Shown: positions 880 to 21,107 of the stretch, piece by piece | Numbering within the stretch: position 1 is the stretch's first letter | How the letters are laid out: every line of letters starts with the position of its first letter | NCBI GenBank assembly: GCA_945861435.1 | Contig: CAMAUX010000058.1 | Coordinates: forward strand, 1-35,810 | Direction of reading: 5' to 3' | From: Chthoniobacter flavus | GTDB lineage: Bacteria > Verrucomicrobiota > Verrucomicrobiia > Chthoniobacterales > Chthoniobacteraceae | Length of the DNA: 35,810 bases | Notes under the pieces: generated by a model | What the model saw: only the letters and a program-made list of their open reading frames with translations | Told to the model about the DNA's origin: nothing | Database searches by the model: none | Made by a program: the position numbers and the translations under genes

Positions 880-1839
880 TTACTTTTTCTTCTCCAGCAC
901 CCAGATGTTGCGGAAGAAGACGGGGTTGCCGTGGTTCTGAAGCATGATGGGGCCGGGGTCGGCAGATTCCTTGAGGCCGCCGCCGGGGGTGGGGCCTCGG
1001 AGTTCGACGTTGTCTTGAACGAGGGTGCCGTTGAGGCGCACGGAGATGCGTGCGTTTTCAGTTTTGCGGCCCTCGGAGTCAAACCGGGCGGACTGGAGGT
1101 CGATGTCGTAGGTCTGCCAGGAAAGCGGGGGAAGGCAGGTGTTCACCTTGGGGCCTGCGACTTGGTAGATGCCGCCGGTTTCGTTGCTCTGGCCCTTGAG
1201 GGAGAAGGAGTCGAGGACCTGGCATTCGTAGCGGTCTTGGACGTAGACGCCGCTGTTTCCGCGGCCCTGGCCGCGGGCCTCTGGCATGAAGGGGGTGCGG
1301 AATTCGACGTGGAGGGTGCAGTCACCGAAGGTCTGTTTGGATTTGGTGCCGACGCCGAGGAGGCCGCGTTCGTCCATTTTGCCGTTCTGCCATGCATCGG
1401 CATTGGAGCCGTCGAAGAGGACGACGGCGCCTGCGGGTGGCTTCTGGCCGAGGGTGGTGGAGGTGCGGAGGGTTTTCTTGGCGGTGACGGTTTTGCCTTC
1501 TGCGTTGGTGCCGCGAAGGGTGTCGCCGGTGATTTCGCCGTTCCATTCCGGTGTGGAGAAGCGGACGACGCCGGCGGAATCGCGTTCGGCGTCGATCTCG
1601 AGGGTTTTTTCTGCATCGGGTGCTGCGCCCGGGAGTCCGTGGCTCCAGCCGACGATGTGGAATTTGCCATTACCCATGGCGAGGACTTGGGCGGCGCCGT
1701 TTTCGGCGGTGTACTCGCCCTGGATGGCGAAGTCTGGGCCGGCTGCTTCGGGTTCGGTGAAGGCGGGGGATTTATCCGCGGCGAGGAGCGCGGATGCGGA
1801 GGCGATGAGGATGGTGGGGACGAGGATGCGCGGGAACAT
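880..1839 (-). CDS. Secreted DUF1080 (3-keto-disaccharide hydrolase-like) protein
   Basis: This 319-residue protein has a signal peptide (MFPRILVPTILIASASALLAA), an N-terminal beta-rich region of about 110 residues that I do not recognise, and from about residue 137 to the end a DUF1080/LamG-like jelly-roll domain: GAVVLFDGSNADAW, then GNSGVYVQDRYECQVLDSF, a W.TYDID segment, VRLNGTLVQDNVEL, and a last strand PVFFRNIWVLEKK. Members of this family include 3-keto-disaccharide hydrolases, and many copies occur in Planctomycetes and Verrucomicrobiota. The likely location is the periplasm or outer surface and the likely substrate a carbohydrate, both by inference. The start at 1839 is the only Met before the signal peptide; the sequence before it is C-rich with no Shine-Dalgarno. 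It lies 96 bases downstream of fabF, which is functionally unrelated. A second DUF1080 gene is at 15478. Confidence 0.88.
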   Translation of the reverse strand: MFPRILVPTILIASASALLAADKSPAFTEPEAAGPDFAIQGEYTAENGAAQVLAMGNGKFHIVGWSHGLPGAAPDAEKTLEIDAERDSAGVVRFSTPEWNGEITGDTLRGTNAEGKTVTAKKTLRTSTTLGQKPPAGAVVLFDGSNADAWQNGKMDERGLLGVGTKSKQTFGDCTLHVEFRTPFMPEARGQGRGNSGVYVQDRYECQVLDSFSLKGQSNETGGIYQVAGPKVNTCLPPLSWQTYDIDLQSARFDSEGRKTENARISVRLNGTLVQDNVELRGPTPGGGLKESADPGPIMLQNHGNPVFFRNIWVLEKKK

Positions 1840-8470: not shown

Positions 8471-8719
8471 GAGGGATGCGGTTCGTGCAGTGGGTGGAAT
8501 CTTGGGGTTAATCCGGAAGTCACCTTTCAGGGGACAAGCGGATGAGCGCTCGACAGCATGGGTCTCCGCCTGTGGCCGAGATGAAGAAGCGCATCGGTGG
8601 TATGTGCGCTCTGATGACGACAAGGAATCTGGGGCGACGTGGCCGGTGAGCGCGGCATCACGGCGAACGGGTTTTTTGGTGGGGTTGCCACCGAGGGGGG
8701 CTCACACTATAGGGAGGCA
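8471..8719. other. Intergenic region upstream of the YihY-cNMP gene
   Basis: These 249 bases show no gene that I can support. The last 35 bases carry a promoter-like pair, listed separately. No terminator with a T-run was seen after the gene ending at 8470. Confidence 0.5.
8685..8713 (+). promoter_or_regulatory. Sigma-70-type promoter directly before the YihY-cNMP start codon
   Basis: TTGCCA at 8685-8690 and TATAGG at 8708-8713 are separated by exactly 17 bases. The A of the ATG at 8720 lies 7 bases after the -10 box, so transcription would begin at or next to the start codon and the message would be leaderless or nearly so. The AGGGAGG at 8711-8717 is only 2 bases from the ATG, too close to serve as a normal Shine-Dalgarno. 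Confidence 0.5.
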
Positions 8720-10003
8720 ATGAGAATCACTGGGCGCGATGCGCTGCACATGGCGGTTCTGGTGAGCCGTGAGTCGGTGCATTCGTTTTCGAGGAACCAG
8801 AATCTCGAGAGTGCAGCGACGCTTGCGTACTATGGGTTTCTTGCGCTGATGCCGCTTCTGTTGCTGGTGAGTTGCGTGCTTGGATATCTGCTGAATTCGG
8901 CGGCGAACATGGATGCGATGGCGGAGTTGGTGACTGCGCTGTTCCCGACTTTGGACCGGGTGGTGCTCAAGGATTTGCAGTCGCTGGCAGGGGAGCGGGC
9001 GCTGGGTTTGGTGGGGATCGGGGTGATGTTGTGGTCGGTGACACCACTTTCCGGTGCGCTGCGGAGCAGCCTGAGGAGGGTGTTCAAGTCGGAGCGGCGG
9101 TTGCCGTTCTTTTATGGGAAGGCGTTGGATCTGGGGGCCATCATGGTGACTTTGGTGACGTTCACCGGGGGGGTGTTCTGGCACGCGTACCATGCGACCC
9201 ATCCGCTCTCGATGCCTGCTGGTTGGGAGTGGTGGGAGAAGATTTTGGAGGCTGGTGTGCCGGCGATCTGCACGTTTTTGGGCGTGGCTGTCGTGCTGAC
9301 GACGTTCGCCCCGGTGCGTGTGGGCCTGTGGCACCTGTGCGCGGGTGCGCTGACGACGACGCTGCTGCTGGTGCTCATCCGGCCAGTGTTCAGCCTGATG
9401 CTCGAGTTCAACTCCGTTTACGGGTATGCGTTTGGGTCGTTGAAGGCGATCTTCCTGCTCATTGTCTGGGTGTTCTACCTGTTCGCGGCGCTCTTGTTTG
9501 GAGCGGAGGTGATGGCCAACACGCACCGCAGGGAGGCGCTGATGTTGCGGGGACTTCTCAGCGGCACGCTCAAGTCGGGGGTGTCGGGTAATCGGCTGCT
9601 TGTTCCGTTTCTGCGGGTTGTCAGGCAGGGGGACGTGCTCTTTGAGGAGGGGGCCCCCGGGCACGAGATGTTCTATGTTGCCAAGGGGGCGGTGGCCATG
9701 CGCAAGCGTGAGCGCGAGGATGCCGATGGGGCGGGCAATGACGTGGCCAGAGGCGCAGGGCGGTTGCTATGGACCGCGCGTGAGGGGAGTTACTTCGGGG
9801 AGATGTCGTTGCTCATCGACGCTCCGAGGAGTGCGTCTGCCGTGGCGGTGGCGGATACCGAGTTGGTGGTGATCTCCGAGGCGAGCTTTGACACCATCCT
9901 GCGCGAGAACCCCGGGATCGTGCACTCGCTGCTGAAGGAGCTCGCGGAGCGCCTTAGAAAGACGAGCGAGCTAATCGATTACGAAGAGGTGGGGAAGGCC
10001 TGA
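8720..10003 (+). CDS. YihY/UPF0761-family membrane protein fused to a C-terminal cyclic-nucleotide-binding domain
   Basis: This 427-residue protein has two parts. Residues about 10-285 are a YihY/virulence-factor-BrkB domain: the N-terminal helix, LESAATLAYYGFLALMPLLL, and several membrane helices ending in LKAIFLLIVWVFYLFAALLF then GAEV, the usual YihY finish. From about 300 to 415 there is a Crp-type cNMP fold with VVRQGDVLFEEGAPGHEMFY, and a phosphate-binding cassette GSYFGEMSLLIDAPRSASAV in which the ribose-binding Glu and the phosphate-binding Arg are both kept. The YihY family (once called RNase BN, an assignment later withdrawn) has no firm function. The fusion suggests gating by cAMP or cGMP, by inference. 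The ATG at 8720 is chosen for the promoter spacing; the ORF runs open from 8639. No cyclase gene is nearby. Confidence 0.88.
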   Translation: MRITGRDALHMAVLVSRESVHSFSRNQNLESAATLAYYGFLALMPLLLLVSCVLGYLLNSAANMDAMAELVTALFPTLDRVVLKDLQSLAGERALGLVGIGVMLWSVTPLSGALRSSLRRVFKSERRLPFFYGKALDLGAIMVTLVTFTGGVFWHAYHATHPLSMPAGWEWWEKILEAGVPAICTFLGVAVVLTTFAPVRVGLWHLCAGALTTTLLLVLIRPVFSLMLEFNSVYGYAFGSLKAIFLLIVWVFYLFAALLFGAEVMANTHRREALMLRGLLSGTLKSGVSGNRLLVPFLRVVRQGDVLFEEGAPGHEMFYVAKGAVAMRKREREDADGAGNDVARGAGRLLWTAREGSYFGEMSLLIDAPRSASAVAVADTELVVISEASFDTILRENPGIVHSLLKELAERLRKTSELIDYEEVGKA

Positions 10004-15477: not shown

Positions 15478-16059
15478 ATGAGCACCCCCTTTGCAATCTC
15501 CAGAAGGCTCCTGATCGGAGCGGCCCTGTCGTGTATTTTCGCGTTGCGCGTCGTTGGTGCGGAGGTGGAGTCGGGATACGTGTCGCTTTTCAACGGCAAG
15601 GATCTGACGGGCTGGCAGTACACGGATGCGGACAAGTTTGATGGGAAGACGAGCGCCAGTGACGAGCGTTATGTGGCACGGGATGGGATGCTGGTGGTGC
15701 AGCCACAGGGTGCCGGGCCGCGTTTGCGGCAGTTGTGGACCACGCGGCAGTTCCCGAAGAATTTCACGCTGAAGCTGGAGTTCCGTGCGGCGGTGAATGC
15801 GGACAGCGGGATTTTTGTGCGCAAGCCGCAGTTGCAGTGCCGCGATTATTTGGTGGCCGGACCTTACAAGGAGTTGAAGCAGTACAAGGCGCAGGACTGG
15901 AACGAGGTGGTGATTGTGGTGCGGGACAATGTCGCGCACTGCACTTGCAATGGGGAGGTTTTGGAAGCCGCGCTGAAGCTGCCGGAGACGGGCCCCATTG
16001 GTTTGGAGGCCGACCGCGCTCAGATGGAGTACCGCAACATCCGGCTCCGCGAGGAATAA
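15478..16059 (+). CDS. Secreted DUF1080 (3-keto-disaccharide hydrolase-like) protein
   Basis: This 193-residue protein has a twin-Arg-containing signal-like N-terminus (SRRLLIGAALSCIFALRVVG) and one DUF1080 domain: GYVSLFNGKDLTGWQYTD, FTLKLEFRAAVNADSGIFV, the WNEVVIVVRDN strand, and the ending AQMEYRNIRLREE. It is shorter than the DUF1080 protein at 880, having no extra N-terminal region. It lies 66 bases after the sulfatase in the same direction, so the two may be co-transcribed. Possible function is hydrolysis or binding of an oxidised sugar derivative in the periplasm, by family inference. A GGGG run precedes the ATG at 15478. Confidence 0.9.
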   Translation: MSTPFAISRRLLIGAALSCIFALRVVGAEVESGYVSLFNGKDLTGWQYTDADKFDGKTSASDERYVARDGMLVVQPQGAGPRLRQLWTTRQFPKNFTLKLEFRAAVNADSGIFVRKPQLQCRDYLVAGPYKELKQYKAQDWNEVVIVVRDNVAHCTCNGEVLEAALKLPETGPIGLEADRAQMEYRNIRLREE

Positions 16060-16168: not shown

Positions 16169-16194
16169 CCGCCCTCAGGGGGCGGTTTCAGTTT
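16169..16194 (+). terminator. Possible rho-independent terminator after the DUF1080 gene
   Basis: CCGCCC (16169-16174), a 5-base loop and GGGCGG (16180-16185) form a perfect 6-base-pair GC stem followed by TTTCAGTTT. It lies between two converging genes, ending where the minus-strand gene stops at 16194. The T-rich tail is short, so the call is tentative. Confidence 0.45.
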
Positions 16195-17600
16195 CAGGGC
16201 TGGCGCTGACAGCCGAAGAAGCCCCGCTTTTTGATGATATCGGCGACTTGGTCCGGCACCATTTGCTCCCAAGAAGAGTCTCCTGCGGCGATGCGTTTAA
16301 GGACATCGCGCGAGAAGATGTTGATGTATTCCGGGCGGTAGTTGTCGAGGGCCACGAAGCGCTGGCGGCCTGCAAGGTACTGGTAGAGGGGGCGGAGTTC
16401 GGGGTTCACCTCGAGGGTGTCGATGGTGGTGACCGGTGTGCCTGGCGCGGATTGGAGCGGGTAGACGTAGAGGCGGAGGTCGTTTTTGAACAGGCGTCCG
16501 AAGCTTTCGAGAATCCCGCCGGGAAGCTGAGTGTAGTATTTTTCGTCGAACAGCTCCGCGAGGCTGGGGACGCCCATGACGATGCCGATAGGCTCCGCGG
16601 TATGGCGTGCGAGGTAACTGGCCAGGCGGTAATACTCCGAGTAATCGGAGACCAAGACGGTCATTCCGCAGGCGGAGAGAAGGTCGGCGCGGGCGAGGAA
16701 GTCGCGGCGGTCTACGGCGCCCTCGGTGAGGAGGTTGCGCATGGTGATTTCCATCACTTCAACCACCGGTTTCTGGCCGATCCGGGGGTCGTTGCGGAAT
16801 TTTTCCTCTGCGCAGCGCACCATGTCGAGGTTGACGTGGGTGACTGGGCGGAAGCTGCCGCGTGAGACGAGGACTGCGTGTTTGTAGAAGACTTCGCTGG
16901 GCTGTAGCACTTCGCGGTCCTTGCCGAACATGGCGGCGCCGGTGAGGCCGAGTTGGACGAGCTTGAGGCTCATGAGCCGGTTGTCGACGTGGCGGAATTC
17001 GATGCCACTGAACTCGATCATGTCGATTTCGATGCGGCCGGTGGTGAGCTTGTCCAGCAGAGACTCGAGCAGTGCTTCGGGCTCATGGTGGCGGAAGAAC
17101 GCGCCGTAGAGGAGGTTGACTCCTACGATTCCGAGGGCCTCCTGTTGAAGGGCGGCCTCGGTATCCAGCATCCGCACATGGAGGATGATCTGGCTGGGTT
17201 CGTCGCACGGGTGGGCCTGGAATTTCACTCCCATCCAGCCGTGGCATTCGTTGTTTCCCCTGAAGCTGCGGGCCGTGACGGTGTCTGCGAAGGCAAAGAA
17301 GCACGTGGACTCGCCGCGTTTGTCGCTGAGTCGTTCGAGGTTGAGCTGCAGTTCGTGGTCGAGCATCGAATGCAGCCTGTGGCGTGAGACGTAGCGGTCG
17401 CTGGGGCCGTAGACAGCGTCGCTCACCGTCATGTCGTAAGCGGAGATGCTCTTTGCGATGGTGCCTGCAGCGCCTCCGACGCGGAAGAACCAGCGGACCA
17501 CTTCCTGACCCGCGCCGATTTCTGCAAAGGTTCCGTACCAACTGGGATCGAGGTTGATGCGGAGCGCTTTCTGGTGGGTGTCGACGGCGGCTTCTTTCAT
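16194..17600 (-). CDS. Conserved 468-residue protein of unknown function
   Basis: A soluble protein with no signal peptide or membrane helix. It has many glycine- and aromatic-rich blocks of the kind seen in enzymes: GTFAEIGAGQEVVRWFFR, GGAAGTIAKSISAYDM, VSDAVYG, NECHGWMGVKFQ, GIVGVNLLYGAFF, FRHVDNRLMSLKLVQLG, FRPVTHVNLDM, ITMRNLLTEGAVDRRDF, GIVMGVPSLAELFDEKY and LPGGILESFGRLFKNDLRLY. I recall close full-length relatives in Bacteroidetes and other phyla whose database names (TonB-dependent receptor, or nicotinate-nucleotide adenylyltransferase) do not fit the sequence: there is no beta-barrel or plug and no clear HxGH nucleotidyltransferase motif. The function is therefore unknown. It follows an FMN split-barrel gene by 57 bases, itself 47 bases after a DEAD-box helicase, all on the minus strand. 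The ATG at 17600 has no Shine-Dalgarno. Confidence 0.85.
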   Translation of the reverse strand: MKEAAVDTHQKALRINLDPSWYGTFAEIGAGQEVVRWFFRVGGAAGTIAKSISAYDMTVSDAVYGPSDRYVSRHRLHSMLDHELQLNLERLSDKRGESTCFFAFADTVTARSFRGNNECHGWMGVKFQAHPCDEPSQIILHVRMLDTEAALQQEALGIVGVNLLYGAFFRHHEPEALLESLLDKLTTGRIEIDMIEFSGIEFRHVDNRLMSLKLVQLGLTGAAMFGKDREVLQPSEVFYKHAVLVSRGSFRPVTHVNLDMVRCAEEKFRNDPRIGQKPVVEVMEITMRNLLTEGAVDRRDFLARADLLSACGMTVLVSDYSEYYRLASYLARHTAEPIGIVMGVPSLAELFDEKYYTQLPGGILESFGRLFKNDLRLYVYPLQSAPGTPVTTIDTLEVNPELRPLYQYLAGRQRFVALDNYRPEYINIFSRDVLKRIAAGDSSWEQMVPDQVADIIKKRGFFGCQRQP

Positions 17601-17657: not shown

Positions 17658-18125
17658 TTAGTGAGCCGGAAGCGGAGGGGGCGTGAGCGGGACTTCCTGA
17701 TACTCGAGGGCCCATTCGTGCATGAAGCGCACACGGTTGGGTTCGACTCGGTAGATCACGAGGTCGGGATTGTCTGGCGTACCAAGATACTTTCGCAGCA
17801 GCGGATTGTCGCCCCAGATTTGAGCGAGGACGACCGGGTCTGTAACCACTTGGGCGACGCCTGTGATGCGGACCTGATCATGGCGCTCGTCCAGATAGTT
17901 GAGCTCCACTTTTGGGTTCGCTGAGATTTCGGCTGTCTTGCCGTAGCGGCGCAGGTTGGCGATGAAGATGGTGAACCCCTCTACGCGCACCGGCGAGACC
18001 GGGCGTACGCGGGGTTGGTCGCCTTCCACCGTGGCTAGCTGAGGGAACCGGGCGTTGCGGATCACCGCATGGGCGGCGGAAATGAGTTCTTCTCCCGACA
18101 GGGGTGAACCGATGGGGCCGGGCAT
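17658..18125 (-). CDS. Pyridoxamine 5'-phosphate oxidase-like FMN split-barrel protein
   Basis: This 155-residue protein has the flavin-binding split-barrel pattern: FPQLATVEGDQPRVRPVSPV, FTIFIANLRRYGKTAEISAN, KVELNYLDERHDQVRITGVAQVV in pieces, then a C-terminal VIYRVEPNRVRFM. This general pattern (a substrate-side strand, then Y..K...I..NP.V.L) is found in PNPOx-like proteins binding FMN, F420 or heme. It lacks the C-terminal PNPOx signature of true PdxH, so it should not be called pdxH. It lies between a DEAD-box helicase and the 468-residue unknown protein, with short gaps on both sides, consistent with one transcript. The substrate is unknown. Confidence 0.85.
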   Translation of the reverse strand: MPGPIGSPLSGEELISAAHAVIRNARFPQLATVEGDQPRVRPVSPVRVEGFTIFIANLRRYGKTAEISANPKVELNYLDERHDQVRITGVAQVVTDPVVLAQIWGDNPLLRKYLGTPDNPDLVIYRVEPNRVRFMHEWALEYQEVPLTPPPLPAH

Positions 18126-18172: not shown

Positions 18173-20140
<1,968 letters not shown>

Positions 20141-20345
20141 CGCAGCTTCTAGATCGGGTGGCTGTGGAGTGCCATAGGAAAGCAGCGGGCAGAGCGATTC
20201 AGTAGCGGGGCCATCGTGGCTTTTGGTGGAGCGGCTATGAATGATGAAGCGCCTCGGAGGGGCCATGATTGGGCTTGTCCCAGCGGGCGGGGGCTTGTGA
20301 AGGTGATGGCTTTCTCCTGCGGTTTTTTTCAGAAGGACACTCATC
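20141..20345. other. Divergent intergenic region between the DEAD-box helicase and proB
   Basis: These 205 bases must carry two divergent promoters. On the proB side, GCGGGGG (20287-20293) can pair with CTCCTGC (20314-20320, two G-U pairs), directly followed by GG and seven T (20323-20329). This looks like a weak intrinsic terminator 10 or more bases before the proB Shine-Dalgarno AAGGA (20333-20337), possibly an attenuator. No leader peptide was recognised. Confidence 0.35.
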
Positions 20346-21107
20346 ATGCGCATCGTTTTGAAATTTGGTTCCGGCATCCTAGCCAGTGCGGGGGGCAACT
20401 CATTGGACGAAGCACAGTTTGCGCGTCTGAGCGCGGAGGTGGCGGCGCTCGTGGCGGCCGGGCACGAGTGCATCATTGTTTCGAGCGGCGCGGTGGCGGC
20501 GGGCTTGATGGCGCTGGGCCTTGCGGCGCGACCGGAGGAGCTTTCGGCGAGGCAGGCGTGTGCGGCGGTGGGGCAGTCGCGACTGATGCAGCTTTACGCG
20601 CGGATGTTTGAGGGGCACGGGTTGATCGTGGGGCAGTTGCTTCTCACCCATGGGGATCTCGACAGCCGCACGAGGCATCAGAATGTGCGCAACACGCTGG
20701 AGCGCTTGATCGCACACCGCGGTGTGGTTCCGGTGATCAACGAGAACGATTCGGTGGCGGTGGAGGAGCTCAAGTTTGGAGACAACGACCGGCTCTCGGC
20801 TGAGGTGGCGGTGTTGGCGGGGGCTTCGCGCTTGCTCCTTCTCACGAGCGTGGACGGGCTTCTCGATGATGCGGGGCAAACGGTGGCTGTGGTGGATGAT
20901 ATCGACTCCGTGGCGGGGCTCGCGCGTCAGGAGAAGGGGCATTTTTCGGTGGGCGGGATGGTTTCCAAGCTGCAGGCGGTGCGCCTTGCGGTGGAGGCGG
21001 GGATCCAGACTCACATTGCGAGCGGACGCAAGCCGGGCCAGATCGGGGCGATCGTGGCGGGCGAGTCCGTGGGGTCGACGTTCCTGCGGCGTTCTTCCAA
21101 GGGTTGA
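20346..21107 (+). CDS. proB: Glutamate 5-kinase, short form without PUA domain
   Basis: This 253-residue enzyme phosphorylates L-glutamate to gamma-glutamyl phosphate with ATP, the first step of proline synthesis. The amino-acid-kinase fold is evident: MRIVLKFGSGILAS, IIVSSGAVAAGLMAL, ARQACAAVGQSRLMQ, the glutamate-site VVPVINENDSVAVEEL, FGDNDRLSAEVA, LLTSVDGLL and VGGMVSKLQAVRLAVEAGI. E. coli ProB has about 367 residues with a C-terminal PUA domain; here the protein stops after the kinase domain, as in other short ProBs. The ATG at 20346 follows AAGGA at a suitable distance. proA follows after 34 bases, so the pair forms the usual proBA operon. Feedback inhibition by proline is expected for the family. 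Confidence 0.96.
   Translation: MRIVLKFGSGILASAGGNSLDEAQFARLSAEVAALVAAGHECIIVSSGAVAAGLMALGLAARPEELSARQACAAVGQSRLMQLYARMFEGHGLIVGQLLLTHGDLDSRTRHQNVRNTLERLIAHRGVVPVINENDSVAVEELKFGDNDRLSAEVAVLAGASRLLLLTSVDGLLDDAGQTVAVVDDIDSVAGLARQEKGHFSVGGMVSKLQAVRLAVEAGIQTHIASGRKPGQIGAIVAGESVGSTFLRRSSKG

Follow-up and report, generated by a model that had tools for sequence, protein, structure and literature searches.

The gene at positions 16194-17600 of the window, the whole 35,810-nucleotide stretch of Chthoniobacter flavus DNA analysed here (contig CAMAUX010000058.1 of assembly GCA_945861435.1), very probably encodes a fusion of a PncC-type domain with a NadD/NMNAT-type domain in which the classical catalytic residues of both enzymes have been exchanged, as judged from predicted structures and from residue counts in aligned homologues. 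PncC turns NMN into NaMN, which enters the deamidated route to NAD (PMC3855486, PMC5384747), and NadD adenylates NaMN (PMC1249556). Because the product of PncC is the substrate of NadD, the protein would join the folds of two enzymes that act one after the other in NAD recycling (NMN to NaMN to NaAD). We tentatively favor the view that the protein senses or regulates the NAD cycle, binding NMN, NaMN or (deamido-)NAD but not performing the classical reactions.

A conserved gene without a curated family match

A single open reading frame fills the interval exactly, from ATG to stop (468 codons). An earlier sequence-only reading had the coordinates exactly right and left unstated the strand, which is minus; the four motifs that it quoted are all found in the translation. 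Codon composition is gene-like, with a GC content of 0.80 at third and 0.40 at second positions in a window of 63% GC, and the protein is apparently soluble. The window is one contig (C58) of a 5.35-Mb genome, 96% complete, which contains one match to the protein; in the window itself neither a tRNA nor an Rfam match at the gathering threshold was found.

The proposal that this is a conserved protein lacking a curated family match was borne out. The 468-residue protein had no Pfam match at E ≤ 1 and no PHROGs match, and PADLOC, which covers anti-phage defence, gave 0 families at E ≤ 1. NCBIfam returned only two sub-threshold matches, both to NMN adenylyltransferase models over residues 431-458, the better at E 0.095 and 12.3 bits relative to a cut-off of 127, and a PDB sequence search returned one match, at chance level. 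Across 38 members of the family, NCBIfam models for NMN, NaMN and pantetheine-phosphate adenylyltransferases recur below threshold (best E 0.0016), and no PF02464 match was listed at E ≤ 1. These weak adenylyltransferase matches alone prove little, because unrelated families recur about equally in the same scans (a lasso leader model, for instance, in five members). A profile of the 38 members gave six weak matches to PDB sequences (E 0.029-1.8), four of which are phosphopantetheine adenylyltransferase or human NMNAT3 chains aligned at the RGSFRPVT motif.

Table 1. Positions in the window of the gene, its predicted domains and motif places, and the two upstream neighbors
Feature	Position	Strand	Evidence
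468-residue protein: PncC-like domain, linker, NadD-like domain	16194..17600	-	ORF and translation; AlphaFold2 pLDDT 85.5, pTM 0.85
Residues 6-172: predicted CinA C-terminal / PncC (NMN deamidase) fold	17085..17585	-	VIA Z 13.5-15.9; Foldseek 2a9s_B
E27-I28-G29-A30-G31-Q32: place of PncC AESCTGG block; nucleophile Ser replaced by Ile28	17505..17522	-	
Y55-S60: place of PncC YxNxxK block; Tyr kept, Lys replaced by Ser60	17421..17438	-	
Residues 173-238: linker segment	16887..17084	-	Modelled with helices and strands; outside most PDB matches
Residues 239-465: predicted NadD/NMNAT fold	16206..16886	-	VIA 1nup_A Z 18.0; Foldseek 8aih E 1.7e-6
G248-SFRPVTHV-N257: place of NadD GxFDPxHxGH; D13 to R251, H16 to T254, H19 to N257	16830..16859	-	
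F429-SRDV-L434: place of NadD ISxTxxR; S to F429, T to R431, R to L434	16299..16316	-	
PNPOx-like (pyridoxamine-5'-phosphate-oxidase-like) gene	17658..18125	-	PF01243 E 9.6e-15; 57 bases upstream
DEAD-box RNA helicase with DbpA RNA-binding domain	18173..20476	-	PF00270, PF03880

Predicted structures of the two domains

A full-length AlphaFold2 model was built from an alignment of 55 sequences. Searched against the PDB with Foldseek, it gave 38 matches at E ≤ 0.001, of which 37 are NadD/NMNAT chains, 8aih being the best, and the remaining one is a phosphopantetheine adenylyltransferase. VIA-align superposed 200 residues of 1nup_A on model residues 239-464 with an rmsd of 3.4. In the model, residues 239-465 carry the NadD/NMNAT fold (TIGR00482, PF01467), sharing with NadD the GxFxP turn and the helical C-terminal end. 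Profile-profile comparison with 18 canonical NadD sequences (hhalign) aligned the C-terminal 37 residues at E 0.0013, improving to E 0.0004 with the larger family set; these two alignments set the register of the ISxTxxR place. The sequence-only reading had discarded the database label 'nicotinate-nucleotide adenylyltransferase' as lacking a basis in the sequence, a judgement that this predicted fold, together with the weak motif-level similarity, does not support.

The N-terminal domain was also predicted alone, from 53 sequences (pLDDT 84.3, pTM 0.87). Ten CinA entries are listed by VIA for this model (144-152 residues, rmsd 2.6-3.0), the next fold being YjjX at Z 6.9, and within the full-length model CinA C-terminal domains match residues 6-172 at Z up to 13.6. 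Foldseek returned ten matches at E ≤ 0.001, all of them CinA-family chains (best E 7.7e-5). The fold of residues 6-172 is, as modelled, that of the CinA C-terminal / PncC domain. Against this relation it counts that it rests on predicted structure and that profile-profile comparison of the N-terminal domain with PncC fell short of significance, even when 33 PncC and 128 family sequences were used. The best local hhalign register, not significant on its own, places AEIGAGQ on AESCTGG and YDMxxS on YxNxxK without gaps and agrees with the motif map of the domain.

Exchanged active-site residues

Residues were counted in an alignment of 128 rows, comprising the window protein, 80 loci of one scan (three cut by contig ends), 25 rows from genomes of the Verrucomicrobiota sampling (nine loci listed there and 16 fetched) and 22 from other scans; L157 (the same gene as L053), L159 (partial) and L109 (a fragment) were left out. 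The register to PncC follows the spacing of the motifs and the best local hhalign alignment, not a superposition. Like PncC and the CinA C-terminal domain (PF02464; AtCinA, 2A9S), the family keeps Glu30 as E27 and Tyr58 as Y55, each in 128/128, and usually Gly46, as G43 (108/128). Unlike PncC, it has Ile28 at the place of the nucleophile Ser31 and Ser60 at that of the base Lys63, again in 128/128; G29, G31, Q32 and D56 are likewise present in every row. In AtCinA the S31A and K63A mutants are inactive, a stacking contact of Y58 with nicotinamide is predicted and Arg145 is essential (PMC5384747). By motif spacing, an uncertain guide here, the Thr at 107 found in 128/128 is perhaps the equivalent of PncC Thr105, and Arg145 is seemingly lost, its place falling on the variable T147.

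In the C-terminal domain the GxFxP turn is kept (Gly in 123, Phe in 125 plus Tyr in three, and Pro in 124 of 128), whereas the surrounding NadD signature has changed: HxGH has become TxxN in most rows, and Asp13, Asp109 and the Arg of ISxTxxR are lost. The place of Asp13 holds Asp in 0/128 and Arg in 114/128, that of Asp109 holds Asp in 2/128, and the ISxTxxR Arg is Arg in 1/128 (five gaps). At the first place of HxGH, Thr occurs in 101/128; this speaks against counting the position as a loss, Thr being permitted by the (T/H)xGH motif. The second His (His19, residue 257) is Asn in 114 rows, the window included, and His in ten, Thr in three and Gln in one. In E. coli NadD, His19, Arg46 and Asp109 have been assigned to the active site, H19A retains 0.62% of activity and the D13V allele (nadD74) lowers NAD levels (PMC1249556). 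The ten homologues with His at the second place are L094-L101, L180 and L188; among them the first place is Leu in L094-L096, Cys in L097-L101 and Thr in L188.

These counts bear directly on whether the protein is a working bifunctional enzyme that takes NMN through NaMN to NaAD by the classical mechanisms of NMN deamidase and NaMN adenylyltransferase. The two folds would fit consecutive pathway steps, and NAD-recycling domains are combined in one chain in the COG1058-PncC (CinA) and Nudix-NadM fusions (PMC3680494); there, however, the partner differs, and here both domains have had their catalytic residues exchanged. With the Ser/Lys pair absent throughout, Asp13 in no row, His19 in ten and the ISxTxxR Arg in one, and with the canonical enzymes already in the genomes, we consider such an enzyme highly improbable. 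A confident match to characterised families, which the sequence-only reading named as evidence against its view, was found for the fold but not for the active-site residues.

A nearly frozen N-terminal pocket

Invariant positions number 32 of 167 in residues 6-172, two of 66 in residues 173-238 and four of 227 in residues 239-465, figures that overstate invariance in that 80 of the 128 rows are the best matches of one scan. They include E27, I28, G29, Q32, Y55, D56, S60, T107, W122, Q128, H141 and Q152. On this pattern of aligned residues the N-terminal pocket appears to be the constrained part of the protein, nearly frozen across the sample. Four homologues from the Bacteroidota side (L189-L192, 436-438 residues) keep the N-terminal motifs, have lost GSFRPVT and end before the last C-terminal helices; they are a natural separation of the constraints on the two domains.

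Such a pocket could be an active site with a new set of residues (E27, Q32, Y55, D56, S60, D61, H141 and Q152) and a different reaction, acting on a pyridine nucleotide or some other nucleotide, with the substrate or a cofactor positioned by the C-terminal domain. We regard this as a real possibility: many of the 32 invariant N-terminal positions are polar, compared with four invariant positions in the whole C-terminal domain; the replacements I28 and S60 are themselves invariant, unlike those of drifting dead enzymes; and the C-terminal motifs vary where the N-terminal pocket stays constant. The neighboring genes, however, suggest no reaction, and the sampling bias towards the closest matches of one scan means that invariance is overstated. 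A sensor or regulator remains the most likely explanation, with new chemistry in the N-terminal pocket close behind. Slightly less likely is the fuller proposal that in Verrucomicrobiota, Bacteroidota, Planctomycetota and Myxococcota a new active site in an NMN-deamidase fold performs an undescribed pyridine-nucleotide step under allosteric tuning from what was once an NMNAT domain.

Canonical NadD and PncC in the same genomes

The genome of the window encodes an intact NadD (L111/L147), with GGSFDPVHHGHL and LSATEIR, and an intact CinA/PncC (L117). Both enzymes occur in 18/18 genomes examined, this one included, 12 of which carry the gene under study; in the alignments of these canonical genes the Ser and Lys of PncC and the His pair and Arg of NadD are invariant in 18/18. 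Among further carriers, NadD matched in 69/69, 67 of them over the cut-off, and none of the TIGR00482 places listed in these 69 is the gene under study. Sixteen further carriers had named records, of which two are labelled Verrucomicrobiota, one bears no phylum label and the rest are labelled with other phyla; NadD matched in 15/16 (12 over the cut-off) and CinA in 15/16. One metagenome-assembled genome (G171) gave neither match. In G066 the NadD match is sub-threshold only and lies inside a 462-residue frame, in G168 NadD is in two pieces on two contigs, the CinA match of G172 is borderline, and five CinA matches cover only part of the model.

We considered the protein as a stand-in for a missing NadD or PncC and rejected this, because the canonical genes are generally present in carriers; it is generally no replacement for a missing enzyme. 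Separately, the genome of the window (G000:C9:90006-90572, L152) and a second genome (G158, L151) contain a NadD-like domain in a frame of about 470 residues with what by eye is a NAD kinase (GGDGTMLRA), an apparent further NAD-related fusion in addition to the stand-alone NadD.

Distribution across phyla

Near full-length relatives with 65-81% identity are found in records labelled Verrucomicrobiota, Planctomycetota, Myxococcota, Acidobacteriota and Kapaibacterium, the nearest being labelled Spartobacteria/Chthoniobacter, of the phylum Verrucomicrobiota. Among close relatives the gene is in 29/38 genomes, its own included. It is present in 44/145 sampled Verrucomicrobiota, as listed in 43/49 of the window's class and 1/96 outside it. 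Counting in each case a centre genome chosen as a carrier, it is in 3/99 Planctomycetota, in 6/77 Myxococcota (three short and weak, one partial) and in 27/148 Bacteroidota, the phylum of the Kapaibacterium assembly. Two records labelled Actinomycetota (L010, L041) are placed among Verrucomicrobiota and may be mislabelled bins.

Strong conservation over great distance, as the sequence-only reading had it, is only partly borne out: homologues in other phyla have 65-69% identity to the window protein, those in many families of the window's own class 38-57% (family f9, 74%). A quickly built tree of 72 rows, rooted at its midpoint, with SH-aLRT as the only support measure and some long branches, puts the window in a fully supported group of 36 together with rows from Planctomycetota, Myxococcota and Acidobacteriota. 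Family f9 and the named Verrucomicrobiaceae lie inside this group; the own-order families f2 and f4 and the own-class families f5-f8, f10, f11, f13 and f14 (38-57% identity) lie outside it. One genome of the window's order (G509) has two full-length copies: one shares 74% identity with the window's, the other 57% and is interrupted by one in-frame stop. A planctomycete genome (G160, L064) also has two full-length copies. Because of this grouping, and of the two kinds found in one same-order genome, the high identity between phyla reflects in part transfer or deep paralogy.

Plasmid and phage collections gave no match to the protein. A full homologue on an IMG/VR contig (L108) is taken as bacterial because it nearly coincides with a genome copy (L182), the two end branches in the tree being 0.0097 and 0.039. 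On another IMG/VR contig, of 4873 bases, positions 15-161 (L109) encode roughly the first 50 residues of a homologue at the contig end, broken after SGGASGT, which may reflect a chimera or an insertion.

Gene neighborhood

In the window the helicase, the PNPOx-like gene and the gene under study follow one another on the same strand, with gaps of 47 and 57 bases, and co-transcription of the PNPOx-like gene with the gene under study is possible. This order is found in the window, L002, L003 and L004 only. Across 75 loci, the window included, that extend over at least 9 kb (of 107), the largest neighbor family occurs at nine. On the Bacteroidota side, an MBL-fold-like gene (start read by eye) lies divergently upstream at 11 of 20 loci and is adjacent at ten. 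Because no neighbor family is widely common, the neighborhood says little about function, and we place no functional weight on the MBL-fold-like gene. Elsewhere in the window, a BrkB/YihY-type protein with a C-terminal cyclic-nucleotide-binding domain (PF03631 and PF00027) is encoded at 8639-10003 on the plus strand, and two 3-keto-disaccharide hydrolase genes (PF06439) at 883-1839 (minus) and 15478-16056 (plus), one of them beside a sulfatase.

The lack of a genetic link to NAD genes in these neighborhoods would suit a reuse of both folds outside NAD metabolism, for another nucleotide cofactor, for RNA or as a protein-protein scaffold, as would the placement of the gene behind the helicase and the PNPOx-like gene in the window and in three close relatives; this superfamily's nucleotidyltransferases have a wide range of substrates (PMC1249556). 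Such reuse seems unlikely to us, given that the two halves belong to one pathway, which would not be favored by chance reuse, and that the PncC Glu and the pyridine-stacking Tyr are invariant.

Discussion

If the protein is a sensor or regulator, as we favor, its N-terminal pocket would hold a pyridine mononucleotide through the conserved Glu, a Gly-x-small loop, the ring-stacking Tyr and perhaps an amide-facing Thr, lacking the hydrolysing Ser/Lys pair of PncC. The C-terminal domain keeps the GxFxP turn without most of the residues for ATP binding and adenylyl transfer. The N-terminal pocket would then be the working site and the C-terminal domain an accessory nucleotide-binding or structural part, with ligand-dependent conformation or partner binding reporting on, or regulating, the pyridine-nucleotide cycle while the chemistry is left to the separate intact NadD and PncC. 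Several points tell against this. No ligand, partner, phenotype or operon ties the protein to NAD metabolism; a frozen polar pocket (E27, Q32, Y55, D56, S60, H141, Q152) is no less typical of an active enzyme than of a sensor; and mononucleotide binding becomes a weaker proposition because the Arg145 equivalent appears lost.

Precedents exist for parts of this arrangement. The E. coli proteins YdeJ and YfaY are inactive CinA paralogues with the CinA fold, replaced active-site residues and an active paralogue alongside (PMC3855486); they differ from the present protein in their replacements, and the accessible text of that source describes no NadD-like domain in them. Inactive members of another Rossmann-like class have been described as nucleotide sensors (PMC9503650). 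Among PncC fusions, those with COG1058/MocF are described, and other CinA fusions are mentioned without analysis (PMC3855486).

In the literature searched, with most subscription literature out of reach, we found no paper on an architecture of PncC-like plus NadD-like domains and, in keeping with the sequence-only reading, no published role. The bare label 'nicotinate-nucleotide adenylyltransferase' would mislead, giving the right fold for half of the chain and the wrong residues. NAD-making enzymes are essential and are drug targets. To our knowledge, it is poorly known how many bacteria sense NAD precursors. A widespread fusion in which both catalytic centres are rewritten, one of them frozen across phyla, would be a testable candidate for an NAD-precursor sensor or for a missing reaction.
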